Source: a virus. Taken from it: a stretch of DNA of 22,182 nt. Numbering within the stretch: the first letter of the stretch is position 1; every line of letters starts with the position of its first letter. The translations under genes and the position numbers were made by a program. The notes beneath the pieces were generated by a model. It ran no database searches, had not been told where the DNA came from, and saw only the letters and a program-made list of their open reading frames with translations. The stretch covers positions 1 through 22,182 of the IMG/VR virus record IMGVR_UViG_3300039191_000054. The stretch is one strand, 5' to 3'. This document shows, in pieces, positions 2,556 to 22,182 of this stretch.

Positions 2556-2719
2556 AGGATTTCTTAGGGAAAGAACTTCAGATTGGGGACAAAGTGGTCT
2601 ACACATCATATGAAGGTAGCAGTTTATCCGTTGGAGAAGTCACAGGCTTCACCCCAAAGATGATACGTATCGGTAACACATTGAAACCTGATGGGTATGT
2701 CGCAAAGGTTGAACCATGA
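2552..2719 (+). CDS. Small SH3/KOW-like hypothetical protein, 55 aa
   Basis: This short gene is bounded by ATGA overlaps on both sides (2552-2555 and 2716-2719), strong evidence that it is translated with its neighbours. The protein begins MKDFLGKELQIGDKVVY, followed by short beta-strand-like stretches (SLSVGEVTGF, KMIRIGN). The 'GDKVVY...GEVTGF' pattern resembles small SH3-like barrel proteins common in phage genomes, although no binding partner can be inferred. There are no catalytic residues and no membrane segment. The fold suggestion comes from pattern recognition only. Confidence 0.72.
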   Translation: MKDFLGKELQIGDKVVYTSYEGSSLSVGEVTGFTPKMIRIGNTLKPDGYVAKVEP

Positions 2720-3558
2720 AGACAGTCTTATTACTAGATGGAGACATCTTTGCGTTTCAAGCCGCCGCCGCCGCCGAGGTCGAGATTGACTTTGGTGAGA
2801 GTCCTACAATGACTTACTTAGCGACTAACGCTAGTCACGCGATACATCATGCACGCGAAAAGATAGCGACTATTCAGGAATCCTTAGGGGCTGATGAGGT
2901 TGTATTCTTCCTAACAGATACACTCAATTGGAGAAAACTTTATGTTGACCCGAACTACAAAAGCAATCGCAAAAAAGTACGAAAGCCTCTTGGACTCCTT
3001 ACGGTTCGTGAGACTCTATTCAATTATTACAACAGCGAGATTGAGCCAACACTTGAAGCTGACGACCTTATGGGTATCAGGGCAACTGACCCCGAGTACT
3101 TTAAGGGATGGAGGAAAGTTATTGTATCAATCGACAAGGACATGCGGACAATTCCGAGCGTTGTATATAACCCCGATAATGACTTCAAGCCTAAAACTAT
3201 CAGTCGCAAACAAGCTGACCTTTGGTTCTTCACTCAAGCTCTCGCAGGTGACCCTACTGATGGGTACAAAGGATGCAAAGGAATTGGAACTGACCGTGCT
3301 ACGGAGTATCTCAGGAATATGTTGGGAGTTAGACCTTATGAACATACTTTTAAATCGGGAGTCCGTAAGGGTCTCGTTGAAATACGACATGAAACAGTCA
3401 CTATGGACTCTATGTGGGATATCCTTACATCACTCTATACCAAGGCAGGGATGTCCTCAGATGATGCCCTTATGAATACCCGATGTGCCCGAATCTTAAG
3501 GCACGGAGAGTATGACTTTAAAACCAAGAAAGTAACTTTGTGGAGTCCTGAGCTATAG
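2716..3558 (+). CDS. T7 gp6-like 5'-3' exonuclease (FEN family)
   Basis: The 280-residue protein matches the T7 gene 6 exonuclease along its length. It degrades host DNA, removes RNA primers and supports recombination and concatemer processing. Visible motifs are the metal-binding N-terminus LLLDGD (Asp 8 and 10), NWRKLYVDPNYKSNRK (about 71-86), EADDLMG (114-120), SIDKDMRTIP (138-147) and GDPTDGYKG (178-186), the helix-hairpin-helix region typical of FEN nucleases. The C-terminus (CARILRHGEYDF, LWSP) also follows T7 gp6. A run of five GCC codons (2761-2775) encodes polyalanine at the point where T7 also has an alanine-rich stretch. The start overlaps the preceding stop by ATGA. The TAG stop lies inside the 22-base repeated motif at 3554. 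Confidence 0.95.
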   Translation: MKTVLLLDGDIFAFQAAAAAEVEIDFGESPTMTYLATNASHAIHHAREKIATIQESLGADEVVFFLTDTLNWRKLYVDPNYKSNRKKVRKPLGLLTVRETLFNYYNSEIEPTLEADDLMGIRATDPEYFKGWRKVIVSIDKDMRTIPSVVYNPDNDFKPKTISRKQADLWFFTQALAGDPTDGYKGCKGIGTDRATEYLRNMLGVRPYEHTFKSGVRKGLVEIRHETVTMDSMWDILTSLYTKAGMSSDDALMNTRCARILRHGEYDFKTKKVTLWSPEL

Positions 3559-3575
3559 GCTCTTGCTCCCCTTAG
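3554..3575 (+). promoter_or_regulatory. Two-copy motif, copy 1: candidate phage RNA polymerase promoter
   Basis: The 22 bases that begin TATAGGCTCTTG and end CTCCCCTTAG recur without mismatch at 5765-5786. Similarity continues weakly downstream (ATTCAACAAT here, GATTAAACAAT there), while the upstream flanks are unrelated. The copy overlaps the stop of the exonuclease gene and precedes a 47-base gap, the position of promoter phi6.5 in T7. Its length fits a T7-class promoter with initiation at the final G. It does not match the T7, T3 or SP6 consensus, so promoter function is inferred from position and repetition. Confidence 0.5.
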
Positions 3576-3605
3576 ATTCAACAATTTAATATCAGGAAAA
3601 ACATT

Positions 3606-3923
3606 ATGAAACTGCAATTTAAAATACCGTTTGTCATAACGTCACTGTTCAGCGTCGAGTGCAAAGTTGAGAAGGCTTTATGGAGTCTTACAAGTGCCAA
3701 AGAGAGCCTTGAGGATTCAGCTAAGACTCTTTCACAGAAATACATCGAGCAGGAAAACAAAGCCATACTCGCTGAGAAGGACAGAATGTGGCGAGTCGCT
3801 AGAGCAGAACGTATCGCTAATGACAAGATCGTTAAGATTTTCGCACGTAAGGCTAAACAAGTAACTCTTATTGCTAAGTCACGTACAGCCGCTAAGAACA
3901 TCAGTTCGTTGATGGGAGATTAA
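3606..3923 (+). CDS. Hypothetical coiled-coil protein, 105 aa
   Basis: This is the first gene of the accessory block after the exonuclease, with a good ribosome site (AGGAAAAACATT) before the ATG. After a short hydrophobic N-terminus (about residues 4-16), the protein is strongly helical and rich in lysine, alanine and glutamate from about residue 20 to 100. Its spacing suggests a coiled coil (KVEKALWSLTSAKESLEDSA, then KYIEQENKAILAEKD). The C-terminal half is basic (RVARAERIANDKIVKIFARK), which could allow nucleic-acid binding. I do not recognise the family. It occupies the position of T7 gene 6.5 without a clear sequence match. Only two bases separate it from the next gene. Confidence 0.72.
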   Translation: MKLQFKIPFVITSLFSVECKVEKALWSLTSAKESLEDSAKTLSQKYIEQENKAILAEKDRMWRVARAERIANDKIVKIFARKAKQVTLIAKSRTAAKNISSLMGD

Positions 3924-3925
3924 TT

Positions 3926-4447
3926 ATGGATGAATTGACAGCACGAATGATTAAGAATCGCGAAGAAGGTCTTGAGAAAGCTCGCAAGCAGACAGCTCGC
4001 AAGCAGAGAGCTGAGGCAATGATTAGAGTACATGAAGATGGTTCAACACGAGAATCATACAATCCACTTATTGATGGAGCGAGCGGCCTTGAGGATTCTG
4101 TTCAAGGTGGGATGAAGCCCGATGCAGATAACGTATGGCTCAATAACACAGAGTTCACGCTCAATACCGATGCGTTCTCACCTGACATAGTATCTGAAAA
4201 AGTCACTAAGCCATTAACAGGTGGCTCAAGTGATTACTACACGATTGGACTTGAAGATGGAACATCAGTAGAAGCGCAAGACATTATTGAAGCACTCAAC
4301 CTGAACTTCGCTGAAGGCAACATCTTCAAGGCAATATGGAGACAAGCCGCTAAGCGTCAAGGTAATGGTAAAGCAGGTACACCCACAAAGTATGACCGAG
4401 AGAAAGTCGTATTTTTCGGCAACAGATTATTAGCAAGGGAGATATGA
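3926..4447 (+). CDS. DUF3310-like protein, 173 aa
   Basis: The C-terminal 75 residues follow the DUF3310 pattern common in phages: a tyrosine-containing start (DYYTIGLEDG), then EAQDIIEALNLNF (116-128), GNIFKAIWRQAAK (131-143), and a closing helix (KYDREKVVFFGNRLL) corresponding to the usual 'KA.WYL.RL'. The same domain occurs in T7 gp1.7, reported to be a nucleotide kinase, but no P-loop is visible here and the enzymatic role is uncertain. The first 95 residues are extra to the domain: a basic helix containing the duplicated ARKQ, then an acidic, polar stretch that may be disordered. The stop is adjacent to the start of the glutaredoxin gene, suggesting a shared link to nucleotide metabolism. 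Confidence 0.72.
   Translation: MDELTARMIKNREEGLEKARKQTARKQRAEAMIRVHEDGSTRESYNPLIDGASGLEDSVQGGMKPDADNVWLNNTEFTLNTDAFSPDIVSEKVTKPLTGGSSDYYTIGLEDGTSVEAQDIIEALNLNFAEGNIFKAIWRQAAKRQGNGKAGTPTKYDREKVVFFGNRLLAREI
3979..4007 (+). repeat. Short direct repeat in coding sequence
   Basis: AGCTCGCAAGCAGA occurs at 3979-3992 and again at 3994-4007, giving a 15-base period in frame and the duplicated residues ARKQ near the N-terminus of the DUF3310-like protein. It looks like a small in-frame duplication by replication slippage. Confidence 0.7.
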
Positions 4448-4666
4448 ATGCTAAGAGTTTATTCGAAAGATAATTGCCCTAACTGTAACGCGGCGAAGAA
4501 CCTACTGATATCTGAAGGTATCGAATTTGAAGCAACCAATATTATCTCAGAGAATATAGAGTCACTAAGGACTGTAGGGGCACGAAAAGCTCCTGCAATA
4601 TTCGATGGGGATGTCTTTATGGGTAGCTATGAAGAACTTAAACAATTTATAAAGGATTCACGATGA
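4448..4666 (+). CDS. Glutaredoxin (thioredoxin fold), CPNC active site
   Basis: This compact 72-residue protein has the redox site C10-P-N-C13 after a first beta strand (MLRVYSK). The expected cis-proline segment is KAPAIF (Pro 49), and a final MGSYEELKQF corresponds to the usual 'GGYDEL' helix start. Its length suits phage glutaredoxin or NrdH-like proteins. Such proteins usually pass electrons to ribonucleotide reductase, using glutathione or thioredoxin reductase as donor. No reductase gene is in the window, so it would serve the host enzyme or one encoded elsewhere in the phage. It begins at the base after the preceding stop and overlaps the next gene by ATGA. A second possibility, a link to the polymerase, is raised in the findings. 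Confidence 0.9.
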   Translation: MLRVYSKDNCPNCNAAKNLLISEGIEFEATNIISENIESLRTVGARKAPAIFDGDVFMGSYEELKQFIKDSR

Positions 4667-5190
4667 AATTTTATTATGGGGTCACTCATATAATGATACT
4701 CAACATGGTATTTGAAACGATATCAGCAGTATTCACAGGCTCAAACAGAGACAATACAGAGCGTATGTTAATCGGCACATCAGTAGCAGAGACATCACTT
4801 GGTACATACCCTGATGCTCATCCTAATAAACTAGGTGTAGGCCTTATGCAGATGGACAGGATTGCCTTTGAGGATGTCAAGGCTAGAACTCGCAATGCAC
4901 ACAAGCACACAGCAGTTCGAAGGTTATCAGTAGATGTCGATAATGTTTTATTTGAAGAACTTGCCACATGCCCGATGCTAAGCGTCCTATTCGCACGACT
5001 ATTCTATATGTTAGTCCCTGAGCAATTCCCTTCAACCGATGAGGGCATGGCGGACTATTGGAAAGAACATTACAACACGTCAGCGGGCGAGGGCACTCCT
5101 GAAGACTTTATGAATAGATCCAAGGCCTTAGAAAAAAAGTTAAAGGAGTATGGGTGTCTACTCGGAGAACAGGCGTTGAAGTACGCATAA
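4663..5190 (+). CDS. Lysozyme-like murein hydrolase / lytic transglycosylase-like protein
   Basis: The 175-residue protein carries the signature of lysozyme-superfamily phage proteins: a helix ending in a glutamate (GTSVAETSLG, probable catalytic Glu near residue 43), then a GVGLMQMD strand (about 59-66) followed by IAFEDV. A second half has an ARLFYML helix and the block DYWKEHYNTSAGEGTPEDF (about 130-148). This layout resembles soluble lytic transglycosylases and related virion hydrolases, which cleave peptidoglycan glycan chains. There is no clear signal peptide. It could act in lysis or be packaged to open the cell wall during DNA entry. ATG 4663 is chosen for its AAAGGA site seven bases upstream and the ATGA overlap; ATG 4693 is an alternative. 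The exact family is uncertain. Confidence 0.65.
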   Translation: MKFYYGVTHIMILNMVFETISAVFTGSNRDNTERMLIGTSVAETSLGTYPDAHPNKLGVGLMQMDRIAFEDVKARTRNAHKHTAVRRLSVDVDNVLFEELATCPMLSVLFARLFYMLVPEQFPSTDEGMADYWKEHYNTSAGEGTPEDFMNRSKALEKKLKEYGCLLGEQALKYA

Positions 5191-5211
5191 GAAATCACAA
5201 GGAATAACAAC

Positions 5212-5589
5212 ATGTCACATACGTTAGTATCATTAGTATTCGCAACAAATCCACTCACAGAACACCTTGATAAAGAGGGTTTAAAGTTAACACCAGTGCA
5301 TTCCGTTACTAAGGGTGAGTCGAATGTGACTGTATATATCCGCTTCGGGATGATGAGCTTAATGAAGCATTGGCTAAAGGGTTATAAAGCCCTGAAGTAC
5401 GAGACAACCCCCCGAAGAAAGCTACGCAAAGCACTTGCACATGAAATCAAGACGCAAGATGCACTTATCGAGTCCCATGAAGACAGCAAAAATATCTTAG
5501 TAATATCAGAGGCAGACTTTGAGAACCCTAAGGATATCACTGTGCTTGAACTTCATACCATTCTCGCTAAGTACCTTCCACATTTATAA
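5212..5589 (+). CDS. Hypothetical protein, 125 aa
   Basis: A good ribosome site (AAGGAATAACAAC) precedes the ATG. The protein has a beta-rich N-terminal half (LVSLVFATNP, SNVTVYIRFG), a basic central region (KGYKALKYETTPRRKLRKAL) and a closing part with alternating strand and helix (NILVISEADF, VLELHTILAKYLPHL). There is no membrane segment or recognised motif. It lies between the lysozyme-like gene and another small unknown, within the block bracketed by the two copies of the 22-base motif. I cannot assign it to a family. Confidence 0.75.
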   Translation: MSHTLVSLVFATNPLTEHLDKEGLKLTPVHSVTKGESNVTVYIRFGMMSLMKHWLKGYKALKYETTPRRKLRKALAHEIKTQDALIESHEDSKNILVISEADFENPKDITVLELHTILAKYLPHL

Positions 5590-5598
5590 GGAGTCTAT

Positions 5599-5769
5599 AT
5601 GACCACATTCGGAATCGTTAATGCTAAGGGTGTACTGGTTATGGCAACCGCAAAATCACCTAAGTTTTATGACACCGCCAAAGAGGCAAACACTAAGTTA
5701 GCCGCTATGAAAGCGAATAGCGCACTCAAAGTTCAAGCTTATACATTACACAAAGTAGTTCTCGTATAG
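5599..5769 (+). CDS. Small hypothetical protein, 56 aa
   Basis: ATAAGGAG lies six bases upstream of the ATG. The sequence opens with beta-strand character (MTTFGIVNAKGVLVMATAKS), continues with a helical, lysine- and alanine-rich stretch (YDTAKEANTKLAAMKAN), and ends with a strand (LKVQAYTLHKVVLV). The layout suggests a compact mixed alpha/beta domain, but I do not recognise the family. Its TAG stop lies inside the second copy of the 22-base motif at the same offset as the exonuclease stop lies in the first copy. It closes the accessory block. Confidence 0.7.
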   Translation: MTTFGIVNAKGVLVMATAKSPKFYDTAKEANTKLAAMKANSALKVQAYTLHKVVLV

Positions 5770-5786
5770 GCTCTTGCTCCCCTTAG
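5765..5786 (+). promoter_or_regulatory. Two-copy motif, copy 2: candidate phage RNA polymerase promoter
   Basis: This is identical to 3554-3575 over 22 bases. It overlaps the stop of the 56-residue gene and lies just before the genes leading to the portal. If initiation is at the terminal G, the transcript would begin at 5786 and nearly start with the AGGA (5785-5788) that serves ATG 5796. I saw no further full copy on either strand. Confidence 0.5.
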
Positions 5787-5795
5787 GATTAAACA

Positions 5796-5993
5796 ATGAA
5801 CAACAGGACAATCAGCAACAACCTCAAGGCTCTCGAAGGACATATCTTACATGTTGAAATAGCAAGGCTTAATGCGATATTTAATGCCTCTCAGCCGAAT
5901 TTACATTGGAAGACACCTGAAGCCGAAAAGAATTACCTGATAGGTCAAAATCACGGTATCAACTTGGTACTGCAAGCAATCTTACAGGAGTAG
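5796..5993 (+). CDS. Small hypothetical protein, 65 aa
   Basis: The ATG follows AGGA (5785-5788) with seven bases between them, so the ribosome site overlaps the edge of the repeated motif. The protein appears all-helical: an N-terminal helix (NNLKALEGHILHVEIARLNA), a polar turn with one tryptophan (NLHWKTPEAEKN), and a C-terminal helix (YLIGQNHGINLVLQAILQE). The last helix faintly recalls the C-terminal part of T7 gp6.5 in its 'G...G....V...I' spacing, which is not enough for an assignment. It ends two bases before the next gene. Confidence 0.72.
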   Translation: MNNRTISNNLKALEGHILHVEIARLNAIFNASQPNLHWKTPEAEKNYLIGQNHGINLVLQAILQE

Positions 5994-5995
5994 TT

Positions 5996-6202
5996 ATGTG
6001 CATATTAGATACACCAGATGCACCCGCACCGCCACCACCCGCCGCACCACCACCAGTTCAATCAGCAAAGAAAGCCTCAGCGAAAGCTCAGAAGTCTTCC
6101 TCTCAATCGAAGAAGCGTAAGAGTAAAGCAGGCACGCGAGTAAACTTAAAGCTGAATACCAAAGGTGCAGGTAAGGGCTTAAATACAGGAGATAAAACAT
6201 GA
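5996..6202 (+). CDS. T7 gp7.3-like small virion/tail assembly protein, 68 aa
   Basis: The protein starts MCILDTPDAPAPPPPAAPPP and continues with a lysine- and serine-rich basic stretch, then a glycine-lysine tail. A short protein beginning 'MC', proline-rich and then basic, encoded immediately before the portal gene is typical of T7 gene 7.3 (which begins MCFSPK) and its relatives, associated with tail assembly and host interaction. It is predicted to be disordered. The ribosome site is CAGGAG, and the TGA stop overlaps the portal start by ATGA. The assignment rests on position and composition, since such proteins are too variable for a firm sequence match. Confidence 0.68.
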   Translation: MCILDTPDAPAPPPPAAPPPVQSAKKASAKAQKSSSQSKKRKSKAGTRVNLKLNTKGAGKGLNTGDKT

Positions 6203-7668
6203 TGGATGCTCATGGTAGGTACAAAGAGTTGGAAACAACCAGACAGCCTTACCTAGACCGAGCGAGAACCTGTTCATCCATAACGATTCCATCCCTGTAT
6301 CCTGAAGAGGGTACTGAGGATGATGCCTTAAGAGTCCCCGAACAAGGACTAGGAGCAAGGGCCGTAAAGAATCTTGCCTCTAAGTTACTTTTAGGACTCT
6401 TCCCGCCTAATCAAGCATTCTTCCGATTAAGTATTGTCGATGAGGATCTTAACGCTCAAATCAAAGCCGGAGAGAAGGCAGAGATTGAGAAGGATTTAAT
6501 GACGTATGAACGTATTGTTCGCTCGTCCCTCGATAAGAAGTACTTAAGACTTAAGCTATACCAAATCCTACGCTTACTTATAGTTGGCGGTAACAGTCTT
6601 CTATACAAGCACAAGGAAGGTTTCAAAGCCTACAAGTTAGATACCTATGTTGTATCAAGATTCCCATCAGGAAAGATAGACGACCTCATTATCCGTGAGA
6701 CTCTCCCAAAGACTAGTATTCCTGAGGGTATCGACCAGTCAACTGGAGTTGAACAACCTTCAGATGGTAAGTCAGTCTACATTTACACAGTCGTTAAGCA
6801 TCACGAAACTAAAATGGACGTTCATCAAGAGATTGAAGGACAGCTCGTGCCGGACAGTGAGAGAACCTATCCAAACGAAAAAGCCCCTTTTGTATGCTTA
6901 AGAATGAATGCGATTGACGGTGAAGATTATGGACGTTCCTACGTTGAAGAACATATTGGTGACTTGTATAACTACGAGAAACTAAGTGGAAGTGTCAATA
7001 AGATTACCGCCGCGATTGCCCGATTGATATGGCTCGTTAACCCGAACTCAAGTACGAACATTAGTAACCTGAATAAAGCTAAAGATGGTGAATTTGTATC
7101 AGGTCGTAAAGACGACATTGAGGCCTTACTTGTAGATAAGAATGCAGACTTACAGGCGATGGAGAACAGAGGGCTTAGGCTTGAAGATTCCATTAAAAAG
7201 AGCTTCATGCTCATGGAGGCAATACAACGTGCAGGCGAACGAGTAACCGCCGAAGAGATTAGGCGATTAGCAGGTGACTTGGATGTAACTCTAGGTGGCA
7301 CGTACAGTCTACTCGCAGAGGAATTACAATTACCTATCGTTAGGATCGTTCTTGATGAAGCAACCAAAAGCAAAGCAGTAGAGAAGTTACCTAAGGGTAT
7401 TGAACCTATTGTGGTCACTGGTATTGATGCAATGGGAAAGGCCGCCGAGTTAACAAAGCTCAGCTCATTCTTGGAGCAAATCATGCCGCTAGGTCAGGAA
7501 GTAATTAAAGAATACGTTGATGTTGAAGGCTATATGACTCGCGTAGCAGTGGCAACAAATATCGACACTGAGGGCTTAATACGCAAACAGAAAGATGTCG
7601 AAGCTAGTCGTCAGGCACAAGCACAACAACAATCCGCGCAAGATGTCGCAGGGAACGTACTCAAGTAA
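6199..7668 (+). CDS. Portal protein (T7 gp8-like head-tail connector)
   Basis: This 489-residue protein follows T7 gp8 along its length: YLDRARTCSSITIPSLYP near the N-terminus, GARAVKNLASKLLLGLFPP (about 54-72), LLIVGGNSLLY, DGEDYGRSYVEEHIGDLYNY, VSGRKDDIEALL, and GERVTAEEIRRLAGDLDVTL followed by GGTYSLLAEELQLPIVR. It forms the dodecameric ring through which DNA is packaged and ejected, nucleates head assembly and joins the tail. It is slightly shorter than T7 gp8 (about 536 residues), mainly at the glutamine- and alanine-rich C-terminus. AGGAG lies seven bases before ATG 6199; the next codon is also ATG and could be the start. Confidence 0.97.
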   Translation: MMDAHGRYKELETTRQPYLDRARTCSSITIPSLYPEEGTEDDALRVPEQGLGARAVKNLASKLLLGLFPPNQAFFRLSIVDEDLNAQIKAGEKAEIEKDLMTYERIVRSSLDKKYLRLKLYQILRLLIVGGNSLLYKHKEGFKAYKLDTYVVSRFPSGKIDDLIIRETLPKTSIPEGIDQSTGVEQPSDGKSVYIYTVVKHHETKMDVHQEIEGQLVPDSERTYPNEKAPFVCLRMNAIDGEDYGRSYVEEHIGDLYNYEKLSGSVNKITAAIARLIWLVNPNSSTNISNLNKAKDGEFVSGRKDDIEALLVDKNADLQAMENRGLRLEDSIKKSFMLMEAIQRAGERVTAEEIRRLAGDLDVTLGGTYSLLAEELQLPIVRIVLDEATKSKAVEKLPKGIEPIVVTGIDAMGKAAELTKLSSFLEQIMPLGQEVIKEYVDVEGYMTRVAVATNIDTEGLIRKQKDVEASRQAQAQQQSAQDVAGNVLK

Positions 7669-8365: not shown

Positions 8366-9406
8366 ATGACATTTCCAGTAGACAAAGCAGCATCCCGCTC
8401 AGGCCAGTTCGACTCAGAAGGTAATTCTCGTGAGTTGTACGTCAAGTTATTTAGCGGCGAAGTACTAACAGCATTTCACGACACAAACCTAGCACTTTCA
8501 TTGACTCGTGTTAAGACTATCTCAAGTGGTAAATCTTACTCGTTCCCACTATTAGGTCGTACCAAAGCAACCTATCACAAGCCCGGTCAATTGATTGATG
8601 CTAACAAGATTCCACATACGGAACGTTTAGTCTCAATTGACGACATCGCAATCTCTCCTGTATTTGTTGCAGACATTGATGAAGCAATCGCTCATTATGA
8701 TTCTCGTGCCCCTTACTCAGACGAATGTGGTGAAGCTCTAGGCGATATGGTTGACCGTAAGTGTTTCCGTACAATTGCTCAAGCGGCCCTAATCACAAGC
8801 AAGTCTCTTGCTACAGCGGCAGGTCTTAAAGCATTAGATGATGAACCATACACATCTAACATTCAGCTAGGTTCAGCAGGCGATGAAGATAACGGCGCGA
8901 AACTTGTAGATGCGATCTATAAAGCTCGTACTCAATTCAAATTGGCTAAGATTAAAGAACAGCCAGTTGTCGTATTCCCACCTGAGCAATATGAAGCTCT
9001 TATCAACGTTAATGATGTAACGAAAGTCGCATGGATTAACAAAGATACAGGCGGTGCAGGTTCGGTCTCTGAAGGTTCTATCGCACGTATTGCAGGTATG
9101 ACTATCTATGAGACTAACAACTTGCCACAGGAAGATGAGTCTTCTGCACTAGCAGATAATGAAGCGACCCCTCTTACAATCGCTGAAGGTGGTTCAGGTA
9201 ATGAAGCTAAGTATCTTGGTGATTACTCTGCAATCGTAGGCTTAGTATTCTCTATGTCAGCAATGGCAACCGTGAAGCTAATCGACGTGACTACTAAAGT
9301 TGTTGATGAGCCTCTACGTTTAGGTTCTACCATCTTAGGTAAACTTGCAGTAGGCCATGACGTATTACGTCCGTGCTGTGCAGTAGCGATCCTTAAATCA
9401 GCTTAA
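8366..9406 (+). CDS. Major capsid protein (T7 gp10A-like)
   Basis: This 346-residue protein (T7 gp10A is about 345) aligns clearly by eye: SGEVLTAFHDTNLALSLTR, ISSGKSYSFPLLGRTKATYH, a PGQLID loop, HTERLVSIDDI and DIDEAIAHYDSRAPYSDECG match the HK97-fold N-terminal half of T7 gp10. It forms the icosahedral shell. TAGGA lies about ten bases before the ATG. T7 produces a longer 10B form by -1 frameshifting; here the -1 frame near the end closes immediately and I see no slippery site, so a single form is expected. A strong terminator follows 30 bases after the stop. Confidence 0.97.
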   Translation: MTFPVDKAASRSGQFDSEGNSRELYVKLFSGEVLTAFHDTNLALSLTRVKTISSGKSYSFPLLGRTKATYHKPGQLIDANKIPHTERLVSIDDIAISPVFVADIDEAIAHYDSRAPYSDECGEALGDMVDRKCFRTIAQAALITSKSLATAAGLKALDDEPYTSNIQLGSAGDEDNGAKLVDAIYKARTQFKLAKIKEQPVVVFPPEQYEALINVNDVTKVAWINKDTGGAGSVSEGSIARIAGMTIYETNNLPQEDESSALADNEATPLTIAEGGSGNEAKYLGDYSAIVGLVFSMSAMATVKLIDVTTKVVDEPLRLGSTILGKLAVGHDVLRPCCAVAILKSA

Positions 9407-9435: not shown

Positions 9436-9467
9436 GCCTCAAGGATTCGTTCTTGGGGCTTTTTTTT
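9436..9467 (+). terminator. Intrinsic terminator after the capsid gene
   Basis: GCCTCAAG (9436-9443) pairs with CTTGGGGC (9452-9459) in an 8-bp stem containing one T-G wobble, with an 8-base loop, followed by eight Ts (9460-9467). This is a classical rho-independent terminator, in the place of T7 T-phi between genes 10 and 11. It would reduce transcription into the tail genes relative to the capsid gene. The rest of the 74-base gap holds nothing else I can recognise. Confidence 0.9.
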
Positions 9468-19446: not shown

Positions 19447-22182
19447 TGACAGTAAGAAAACTATACGCTAATGCAATATATAACGCAGAGCCTCTACAAG
19501 CAGAATTTCCGATAACCTTCACATATCTCAAGCCTGAACATATAAACGTCTTCATTGATGGTGTATGGACAGGCGAGTGGATGCTTCGTGCCGGAAACAT
19601 TGTGGAACTCAACGTACCTCTACAAGATGACCATGAACTACGTATTAATCGTAAGACACCGATAGATATGCGAGATGTGGACTTTGCTACCGAGGCTGTA
19701 CTATCTGAGAAAGTGTTAGACCTTAGCGCATTGCAGACATTTTATGCACTTCAGGAGTTATCTGACAAACAGGTCTTAGGGTTCGACTTATCAGATGTAG
19801 TCCTTAGTGACTACTTAAAGGGTAAGGATGGAGCTGATGGATATGGTTCGAACCCTGAAGATCCTACAACTCCTGAAGGCATAACGATTATTGCCTCAGA
19901 CACAGCAGTATCAATCAGATGGGCTAAGCCACCTTTCAATGGCTACCTAGAAACAATCATAAGGAAACAACAACATGATGAAGGTCTTAGTCCTGACTTT
20001 AGTAGTTCTATTGAGCTTGCGCGTGCTGTGGGAAATTACGTTGACCTTGAAGTCGAGAGTGATTCGCAATATTCATACTGGCTCGTGTACCTTAATACAA
20101 ATGGTGAAGAAGGGGGTGTATCCGAAGCTCTCACGGTCACAACAAAGCAGACACTCGATATTCGACAAGGTTGGCTAGGTCAGGAGGCATTACAGGAAGC
20201 ACTTGCAGAGCGTATAGACCTTATAGACTTACCTGATGTTGGTCTCATAGATAAGCAAAGTGTTATGAATCTAGCGATAGAGGCAGTGCAAGAAAAGCTA
20301 CCATCGGAGGGCACAATAGCCACTCAGGAGTTCATCGCATCGGAAGACTTTGCAACCAATGAAACACTTATAGGTTTCGTAGAGAAGACAGGTTTAAACA
20401 TTAAGTTAGAGAGCTTTGTGTCTACCACTCAGCTTGTCAATGAAGACTTTGCAACTACCACATCATTAAATGCTTATGTACTTTCTGATGAACTTGATGA
20501 GAGCCTTACGTCATATGTATCAAATACACAGCTTGCTAACAAAGATTATGCTTCAAATACTGACCTAACAGCTTACGTGCTGAACTCTGCGTTAAACACT
20601 GAGCTTAATTCCTATGTTAAAAGCACACAGCTTGCTAATGAAGACTTCGCGACCAATACATCATTAACAGCTTACGTGCTGAACTCTGCGTTAAACATTG
20701 AGCTTAATTCCTATGTTCTATCGGAAGACCTTGCTAATGAAGACTTTGCTAAGAGAAGTGAGATAACCGCATTCATAACCCAAATGGACGTTGATTCTAA
20801 CCTAGAGAGTTATGTGTCAAATGAAGCTTTATCTAATGCAGACTTTGCAACCAACTCATCATTAACCGCATTCGTGACTACTAGTACAGTTGATGGTGTG
20901 GTCGAGAGAGTGAGTGCAGTAGAGACATTGGCAGAGGCCACCAAAGACGAAGCATTCTATAGTCTCAAAGTTGAAGCTAATGGTAAGGTCGCGGGGATAG
21001 GCTTAACGTCTAATCCTCAAGGGACAGCTATCCTATTCAATGCAGAGCAGATAGGTTTTCAGAATACCACTGGTTCAGACATCTTACCCTTCTCAGTACG
21101 TGACGAGATTGTATACATCAATCGAGCTAGGGTATCGACTCTTGAAGCTAACTCTATAATCAACGTAGATGATGTTAATGGTAACGAGAAGAGGGCATCA
21201 CTTGGTAACACAATGATTGAGGGAGACCTTACATTAGTGAAGTCAGGTCAGATTAATTGGAAAGACCTACATCCCGATATACTCGCGGGTATGGTTACTT
21301 TCGATGAAGATGCAGAGATTACCGGAGGAACTAGAGCAAACTCGGTGAATGGCCTATCAAATGAAACAGTGTATCTCGCAAAGGTTGGAGATGCTCTTAG
21401 GCCTCCTCTTAATTCAAATGGTGCAACTCAAACTCTTACACTAAGTATTTATGGTGGTGTTGACCCTAAAGATGTTCCTTACCGTGGTGGCCCAGATGCT
21501 CCTCAAATTAGACTTAAAGTTTTCCGAAGAGAGGTTGGTGGAAACACAGAAGAACTCTACAACGAGTACCATGAAGGTGTAATCATTCGAGGTGAAGCAG
21601 AAGGAAGGCCTGCAAGTAGTATAACATCAGAAATTACTGTTAATACTCAACTAGATGTCGCTTCACCTGTTCAGGGTAATGAATATGAGATTTACTTTGT
21701 AGTGTCAGAATACTCAGGTGCATGGGGAGTCACAGGTGGTACTTTAAGTATCGACATACGTGAGCCTGTAGGTTCAACAGGTGGTGTCGTGGTTTCAGCA
21801 TTGGCACATAATGGGGCTACTAAGGCGAGGGTAAGCGTGAATGGTTTTAGTGTTACTCAAGGTAATTTATACACAGGTAGCTTTGATAACCTTATAGCGG
21901 ATAGCTCAGGGCAACTCTACTATGATGGTGTAGACCTGACAGATAAGTTTGCGCTAATCAATGCGGATACTACTGGCACTGCGGCTAATGCTAGTAAGTT
22001 AAATAATATACCTAGTTCTAGCTTTTTAAGATCTGATGCTGATGATTACAAAACTGGTCGGTTATGGCTAGGTGGTCAAATTATAAACAGTGGAGCGGTA
22101 CTTCAAGTTAATGGCTTTATGCGAACAGGTCCAGTCCATATACATGAAGGTGGGAGTAACCCTAACGCTAACAATAAAGCAC
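19446..22182 (+). CDS. Mosaic tail fibre: T7 gp17-like anchor with FN3, tandem repeats and lambda gpJ/DUF1983-like region; 3' partial
   Basis: The frame is open for 912 codons from a GTG at 19446 to the window edge, with AAGGAG six bases upstream; the GTG shares its first G with the preceding TAG stop. Residues 1-105 follow the T7 gp17 virion-binding domain (FPITFTYLKPEHINVFIDG, ELRINRKTPIDMRDVDF, LDLSALQTFYALQE). A short collagen-like turn (GKDGADGYG, 126-134) and a fibronectin-III-like domain (about 143-233) come next. Then come 33-residue tandem repeats (308 to about 489), and a block resembling lambda gpJ/DUF1983 (FYSLKVEANGKVAGIGL, later PFSVRDEIVYINRA; about 490-565). Further beta-rich regions lead to SSSFLRSDADDYKTG, a motif frequent in phage fibres. 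The protein recognises the host surface. The DUF1983-like match is from memory. Confidence 0.9.
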   Translation, partial: MTVRKLYANAIYNAEPLQAEFPITFTYLKPEHINVFIDGVWTGEWMLRAGNIVELNVPLQDDHELRINRKTPIDMRDVDFATEAVLSEKVLDLSALQTFYALQELSDKQVLGFDLSDVVLSDYLKGKDGADGYGSNPEDPTTPEGITIIASDTAVSIRWAKPPFNGYLETIIRKQQHDEGLSPDFSSSIELARAVGNYVDLEVESDSQYSYWLVYLNTNGEEGGVSEALTVTTKQTLDIRQGWLGQEALQEALAERIDLIDLPDVGLIDKQSVMNLAIEAVQEKLPSEGTIATQEFIASEDFATNETLIGFVEKTGLNIKLESFVSTTQLVNEDFATTTSLNAYVLSDELDESLTSYVSNTQLANKDYASNTDLTAYVLNSALNTELNSYVKSTQLANEDFATNTSLTAYVLNSALNIELNSYVLSEDLANEDFAKRSEITAFITQMDVDSNLESYVSNEALSNADFATNSSLTAFVTTSTVDGVVERVSAVETLAEATKDEAFYSLKVEANGKVAGIGLTSNPQGTAILFNAEQIGFQNTTGSDILPFSVRDEIVYINRARVSTLEANSIINVDDVNGNEKRASLGNTMIEGDLTLVKSGQINWKDLHPDILAGMVTFDEDAEITGGTRANSVNGLSNETVYLAKVGDALRPPLNSNGATQTLTLSIYGGVDPKDVPYRGGPDAPQIRLKVFRREVGGNTEELYNEYHEGVIIRGEAEGRPASSITSEITVNTQLDVASPVQGNEYEIYFVVSEYSGAWGVTGGTLSIDIREPVGSTGGVVVSALAHNGATKARVSVNGFSVTQGNLYTGSFDNLIADSSGQLYYDGVDLTDKFALINADTTGTAANASKLNNIPSSSFLRSDADDYKTGRLWLGGQIINSGAVLQVNGFMRTGPVHIHEGGSNPNANNKA
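20367..20912 (+). repeat. Five and a half 99-base (33-residue) tandem repeats in the tail fibre
   Basis: Units start at 20367, 20466, 20565, 20664 and 20763, with a partial unit at 20862. Each unit has the form L..AYVL....L...L.SYV...QLAN.DFA.NTS. Units 3 and 4 share a 53-base stretch (20566-20618 and 20665-20717) with one mismatch, indicating a recent duplication; the others are similar mainly at protein level. The spacing suits a trimeric helical or mixed fibre shaft. Confidence 0.9.

Follow-up and report, generated by a model that had tools for sequence, protein, structure and literature searches.

Gene content of the phage fragment

The stretch of DNA analysed here (the window, 22,182 bases) is a whole virus record that begins inside a DNA polymerase gene. 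It encodes a T7 gp5-type DNA polymerase cut by the record start (positions 1–1923; phrog_17, E 4e-135; PF00476), a T7 gp6-type 5'-3' exonuclease (2716–3558; phrog_107, E 3e-63), small genes including a glutaredoxin, a T7 gp8-type portal (6199–7668; PF12236, E 2e-65), a scaffold, a T7 gp10-type major capsid protein (8366–9406; PF21703, E 3e-46), tube, nozzle and internal virion proteins, and a T7-type tail fibre; all features given with coordinates lie on the + strand. Because of this gene set, from DNA polymerase to T7-type tail fibre, we place the phage in the Autographivirales (T7-like); its portal and those of the nearest sequenced phages share only about 41% identity. The annotated relatives examined encode their RNA polymerase (RNAP) before the DNA polymerase and the record is cut within the latter gene, so the RNAP gene and the further promoters expected would lie outside the record. 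A capsid-based search found a second IMG/VR record of the same phage (IMGVR_UViG_3300012271_000116, 100% identical over the part it covers); it falls within the limits of the window and so does not extend the sequence upstream.

A strong intrinsic terminator (9436–9467; 10-bp stem, 4-nt loop, 8 T) directly follows the capsid gene, as do T-phi in T7 and T16 in LUZ100, and completes a T7-like transcription plan. Farther downstream, the tail-fibre gene contains about six repeats of 33 aa (99 bp), some near-identical (20345–20900), and this is likely a site of length variation.

An exact 22-base repeat overlapping two stop codons

The sequence TATAGGCTCTTGCTCCCCTTAG (22 bases) occurs at 3554–3575 and 5765–5786, identical at 22/22 positions and both times on the coding strand. 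Within each copy, at an equal offset, lies the TAG stop of the preceding gene: that of the exonuclease (3556–3558) in copy 1 and that of a 56-aa ORF (5599–5769) in copy 2. The flanks 5' of the two copies are unrelated, and 3' of them identity stops at the final G, giving way to an AT-rich tail with 78% identity over 50 bases. All of this agrees with an earlier note on this DNA, made from the letters alone, which had described two perfect copies, a stop codon embedded at the same place in each, unrelated upstream flanks and a weakly shared AT-rich tail.

Its length puts the repeat far beyond chance expectation, since exact repeats in 60 Markov simulations of the window reached 16 bases at most. 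Real repeats longer than the 22-mer are confined to the coding tandem repeats of the tail-fibre gene. Scanning both strands of the window at up to 3 mismatches returned no further copy (shuffles likewise 0), and the next best site had 7 mismatches. The motif is thus short and near-invariant, with two exact copies on the + strand of the record and none on the – strand, as in promoters of the T7 class.

Between the copies lies a cassette (3606–5769) of 105-aa, 173-aa, glutaredoxin (4448–4666; PF00462), 175-aa, 125-aa and 56-aa ORFs. Downstream of copy 2 come a 65-aa ORF (5796–5993), a 68-aa proline-rich gene resembling T7 gp7.3 (5996–6202; phrog_13568) and the portal gene. The final G of copy 2, its predicted start, adjoins a GGA Shine-Dalgarno sequence, leaving a 10-nt leader to the ATG at 5796.

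Searches elsewhere found no exact 17-mer of the motif in IMG/VR and, among 84,980 genomes, only two single-copy 17-mer matches (Fischerella and Butyrivibrio), a number within chance expectation. Its 14-mers gave single-copy matches only in IMG/VR, some of them in T7-like contigs, and no contig with two copies. Among phages, blastn of the motif returned only weak matches (E about 4) and megablast of the window returned none; L369, the closest relative by exonuclease, lacks the motif. The exact sequence is therefore new among the virus records searched, and private promoter specificities are usual in this group.

Gene order around the repeat in related phages

The order of promoter, small gene, gp7.3-like gene and portal is common to the window, the Roseobacter phages CRP-114 and CRP-125 and the Rhizobium phage RHEph01, and the distance from motif to portal is similar throughout (434 bp in the window, 443 in CRP-114, 454 in CRP-125 and 475 in RHEph01). 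In all four (4/4, copy 2 in the window), the predicted start lies 10–13 nt before the ATG and adjoins a GGA Shine-Dalgarno sequence; CRP-114 carries CCTTAGAGGATTAAACTAATG where the window carries CCTTAGGATTAAACAATG. The gp7.3-like counterparts, directly before the portal gene, are related in sequence to the window's gene (shuffle z 3.0–8.7). The 65-aa ORF matches the relatives' small genes in place and has no significant sequence similarity to those at the equivalent place.

Copy 1, directly after the exonuclease gene at what we take to be the position of T7 phi6.5, matches in place a copy of the repeat found in the L062 phage, described below. Both copies in the window are thus intergenic and at places syntenic with those of known promoters, after gene 6 and before the head module.

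A stop codon also overlaps the promoter in CRP-114 (8493, 17890), CRP-125 (7554, 16904), RHEph01 (12114), TRX32-1 (6998) and CRP-804 (13926). We therefore regard the overlap as a habit of compact genomes, not as peculiar to this phage.

Private promoter-like repeats in related phages

A blind (de novo) search of relatives for same-strand near-repeats found a private motif of 16–20 bp, in roughly 4–18 copies each, in RHEph01, TRX32-1, LUZ100, CRP-804, CRP-125, CRP-114, BB8, VP4 and one IMG/VR phage. The motifs read GATTACCCCTCCCTTAAGGA in RHEph01 (7 copies), GATTACCACCCACTTAAGCA in TRX32-1 (6 copies), AATAATCACCCTTTCTAGG in CRP-804 (5–6 copies), TTAGGTTGCACCATAG in CRP-125 (5 copies), TTAGGTTGCACCTAAG in CRP-114 (5 copies), GGGGTTGCACAATAGGA in BB8 (4 copies) and ATTAACCCTGACTATAGG in VP4 (18 copies), and CRP-118 has TTAATCACC..T.CTAG in 3 copies. 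Relatives' motifs also occur before the RNAP gene, after it and near the genome end. The same search returned no motif of the promoter-repeat kind in HTVC019P, Lau218, ProddE or ctgrD200. In LUZ100 it returned AATTACCACACAG..ATGGA, which is the phage promoter known from ONT-cappable-seq start sites (PMC10134795).

Extended to fragments of 44 relatives, the repeat search was informative mainly for two, L062 and L046. The L062 phage (IMGVR_UViG_3300012832_000015) carries eight copies of GTTTCTCCCCACCTTAGA, all of them on one strand. Two tandem copies stand directly before its T7-type RNAP gene, whose product shares 40% identity with the RNAP of BB8 and 39% with the VP4 RNAP, and one copy follows the exonuclease, beginning on the TGA of a 23-codon ORF read from the sequence. 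L046 (IMGVR_UViG_3300035494_000006, a 24.5-kb contig) has a LUZ100-like promoter repeat, CAATTAGTGxACAGTCTTGG (noted at 3163 and 6597), in 3 copies on one strand, one of the three lying 489 bp before the portal.

Comparison with known promoters

Several of these repeats resemble that of the window in layout. The RHEph01 repeat GATTACCCCTCCCTTAAGGAT (JX483873) shares a CTCCC.T.AGGAT block, a 10–12 nt leader and the strand, and like copy 2 it precedes two small genes before the portal; it differs in having ATTACC as its upstream half instead of the window's CTCTTGC, in the 7 copies seen and in its known polymerase. The CRP-114/CRP-125 repeat, TTAGGTTGCACC(T/A)TAG, has the same TAGG...TTGC...CC.TAG layout, GGATT.AA leader and place before the portal, and embeds a TAG stop in 2/5 copies in each phage, whereas its TAGG–TTGC and TTGC–start spacings are shorter and its copies number 5. 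That of the L062 phage shares CTCCCC and CCTTAGA and a copy after the exonuclease, with CTCCCC and CTTAG set two bases farther apart and 8 copies in all. The LUZ100 promoters AATTACCACACAGTTATGGA, whose starts have been mapped, are alike in class, map position and G as +1, but have a CACACAG core and 8 copies, including one before the major capsid gene.

Of the classical promoters, T7 (TAATACGACTCACTATAGGGAGA) shares CTC.C.-.TAG at -9..+1 and Syn5 (ATTGGGCACCCGTAA) shares GC.CCC.T.AG at -10..+1; in contrast to both, the window's motif has a different upstream specificity half and lacks GGGAGA after the start. The earlier note had found no match to the T7, T3, SP6 or K11 consensus, and this needs correcting for the 3' half, where CTCCCCTTAG equals T7 CTCACTATAG at 7/10 positions in register, while the upstream half does differ from T7.

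Matrices built from single relatives mostly ranked the two sites no better than within the top few percent (the G001 set being partly misaligned in that comparison), and for this reason we used a joint matrix, with one promoter consensus from each of twelve phages (T7 and Syn5 among them, the window left out), and scanned both strands. With the -9..+1 core, the two sites score equally and rank 4th among 44,346 positions, with +1 at 3575 and 5786; no other register of copy 1 ranks better than 1,922nd. They are also the only intergenic sites among the 14 best core matches, the other high-scoring ones lying inside genes. With -12..+1 both sites rank 48th, and over the full length (-17..+3) the match is weak (ranks 445 and 69). 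Column-permuted matrices reached the observed score in 11/2000 cases for the core, a value to be read in light of the core being one of three column sets tried, and in 254/2000 for the full length. By these scores, the core is T7-class and in register with known promoters, with a predicted +1 at G3575 and G5786, and the upstream half is peculiar to this phage. Ungapped similarity of the motif to the regions before the portal in 89 relatives did not rise above shuffled-motif controls, as expected if promoter specificities diverge.

Proposed function and alternative explanations

Taken together, the relatives' lineage-specific repeats of like size, strand and position, the mapped starts of LUZ100 and the matrix register indicate that both copies are very probably promoters for the phage's own single-subunit (T7-type) RNAP. 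The earlier note had proposed a recognition site of this kind, with initiation near the final G, and the comparative evidence supports it. It had also called the promoter type unfamiliar; a specificity of the phage's own is indeed likely, while the type itself appears to be ordinary T7-class, as is usual in the group.

From the repeat, its strand and position, synteny and similarity to relatives' promoters, we infer that the polymerase recognises the motif, where exactly RNA starts and that the sites are active, along the following lines. An RNAP whose gene would lie to the left of the record would bind at about -17 to -5 (GGCTCTTGCTCCCC) and melt the TTA adjoining the start, with the final G (G3575 and G5786) as the first base of an RNA running rightward. 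Copy 1, spanning about -21 to +1, would drive the genes after the exonuclease, and copy 2 the portal and other structural genes from an RNA start adjoining the Shine-Dalgarno sequence of the next gene. Because the genome is compact, the preceding stop codon would be part of the upstream edge of each promoter.

A signal acting at the RNA level, such as a processing or stability site that works in the transcript immediately behind a stop codon, is very improbable. Each copy does lie directly after a stop codon, where an intergenic RNA element would sit, and LUZ100 has a further repeated element, distinct from its phage promoter, immediately behind stop codons. Yet neither a stable nor a shared fold, of the kind an intrinsic terminator or structured RNA would have, was found in the two copies (z -0.83 and +1.00 for 71-nt regions; -2.2 kcal/mol for the 22-mer alone), in line with the earlier remark that they have no stable hairpin in common; moreover, identity stops at the predicted start site, and the relatives' motif at equivalent places is a promoter. 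We consider it extremely unlikely that TATAGG, present in both copies, forms part of the -10 box of a host sigma-70 type promoter: at neither copy are there -35 and -10 hexamers at 16–18 bp, a sigma-70 scan gives no site there and no excess over shuffles, and the conserved block runs on for 16 bases past this putative -10 box, through a part in which host promoters show no conservation.

The repeats might instead bound an inserted or exchanged cassette (3606–5769) and have no promoter role. Direct repeats do flank a 2.2-kb accessory gene cassette, and the content of this region differs widely from one relative to the next, but a pure recombination or insertion footprint accounts neither for a match to the promoter matrix in a single register nor for the synteny of copy 2, and in relatives the corresponding motif also stands on either side of RNAP and close to the end of the genome; we hold this reading to be highly unlikely. 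A combined role is unlikely, if less so: the identical promoters might also serve as short homology handles bounding an exchangeable accessory cassette and guiding modular exchange in T7-like phages, with a polymerase-promoter pair orthogonal to known ones.

As promoters for the phage's own RNAP, the two sites would extend the T7-like set by one promoter specificity and suggest that, with synteny as a guide, a fragment can suffice for reading the promoters of an uncultured phage. Such polymerase-promoter pairs could be useful as orthogonal transcription tools. The layout is compact, with a stop codon and a putative promoter in one short sequence, plus an adjoining ribosome-binding site at copy 2, and it recurs in several relatives.

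Other repeats in related phages

Repeats of other kinds were seen in the same genomes. LUZ100 (L004) has a second repeated element, (A)CTATCCACTAGCGCATAGG, in 8 copies (375, 576, 3938, 3994, 6688, 6964, 11568 and 22149), several of them directly after the stop codons of RNAP, primase and capsid genes; it is distinct from the mapped phage promoter. A possible counterpart in RHEph01 is GCATCCACCAGTG, in 4 copies, one of them at the RNAP stop. Early-region repeats also occur in BB8 (L006, 2473–4781) and HTVC019P (L008, 1024–7359). In Pasto (L012), the palindromic repeat TAGTCACTCAAGGGTGAC lies at 550, 1299, 3531, 8866, 11854 and 12368, intergenic and both before and after RNAP, and is perhaps the operator of the phage's MarR/HTH regulator.
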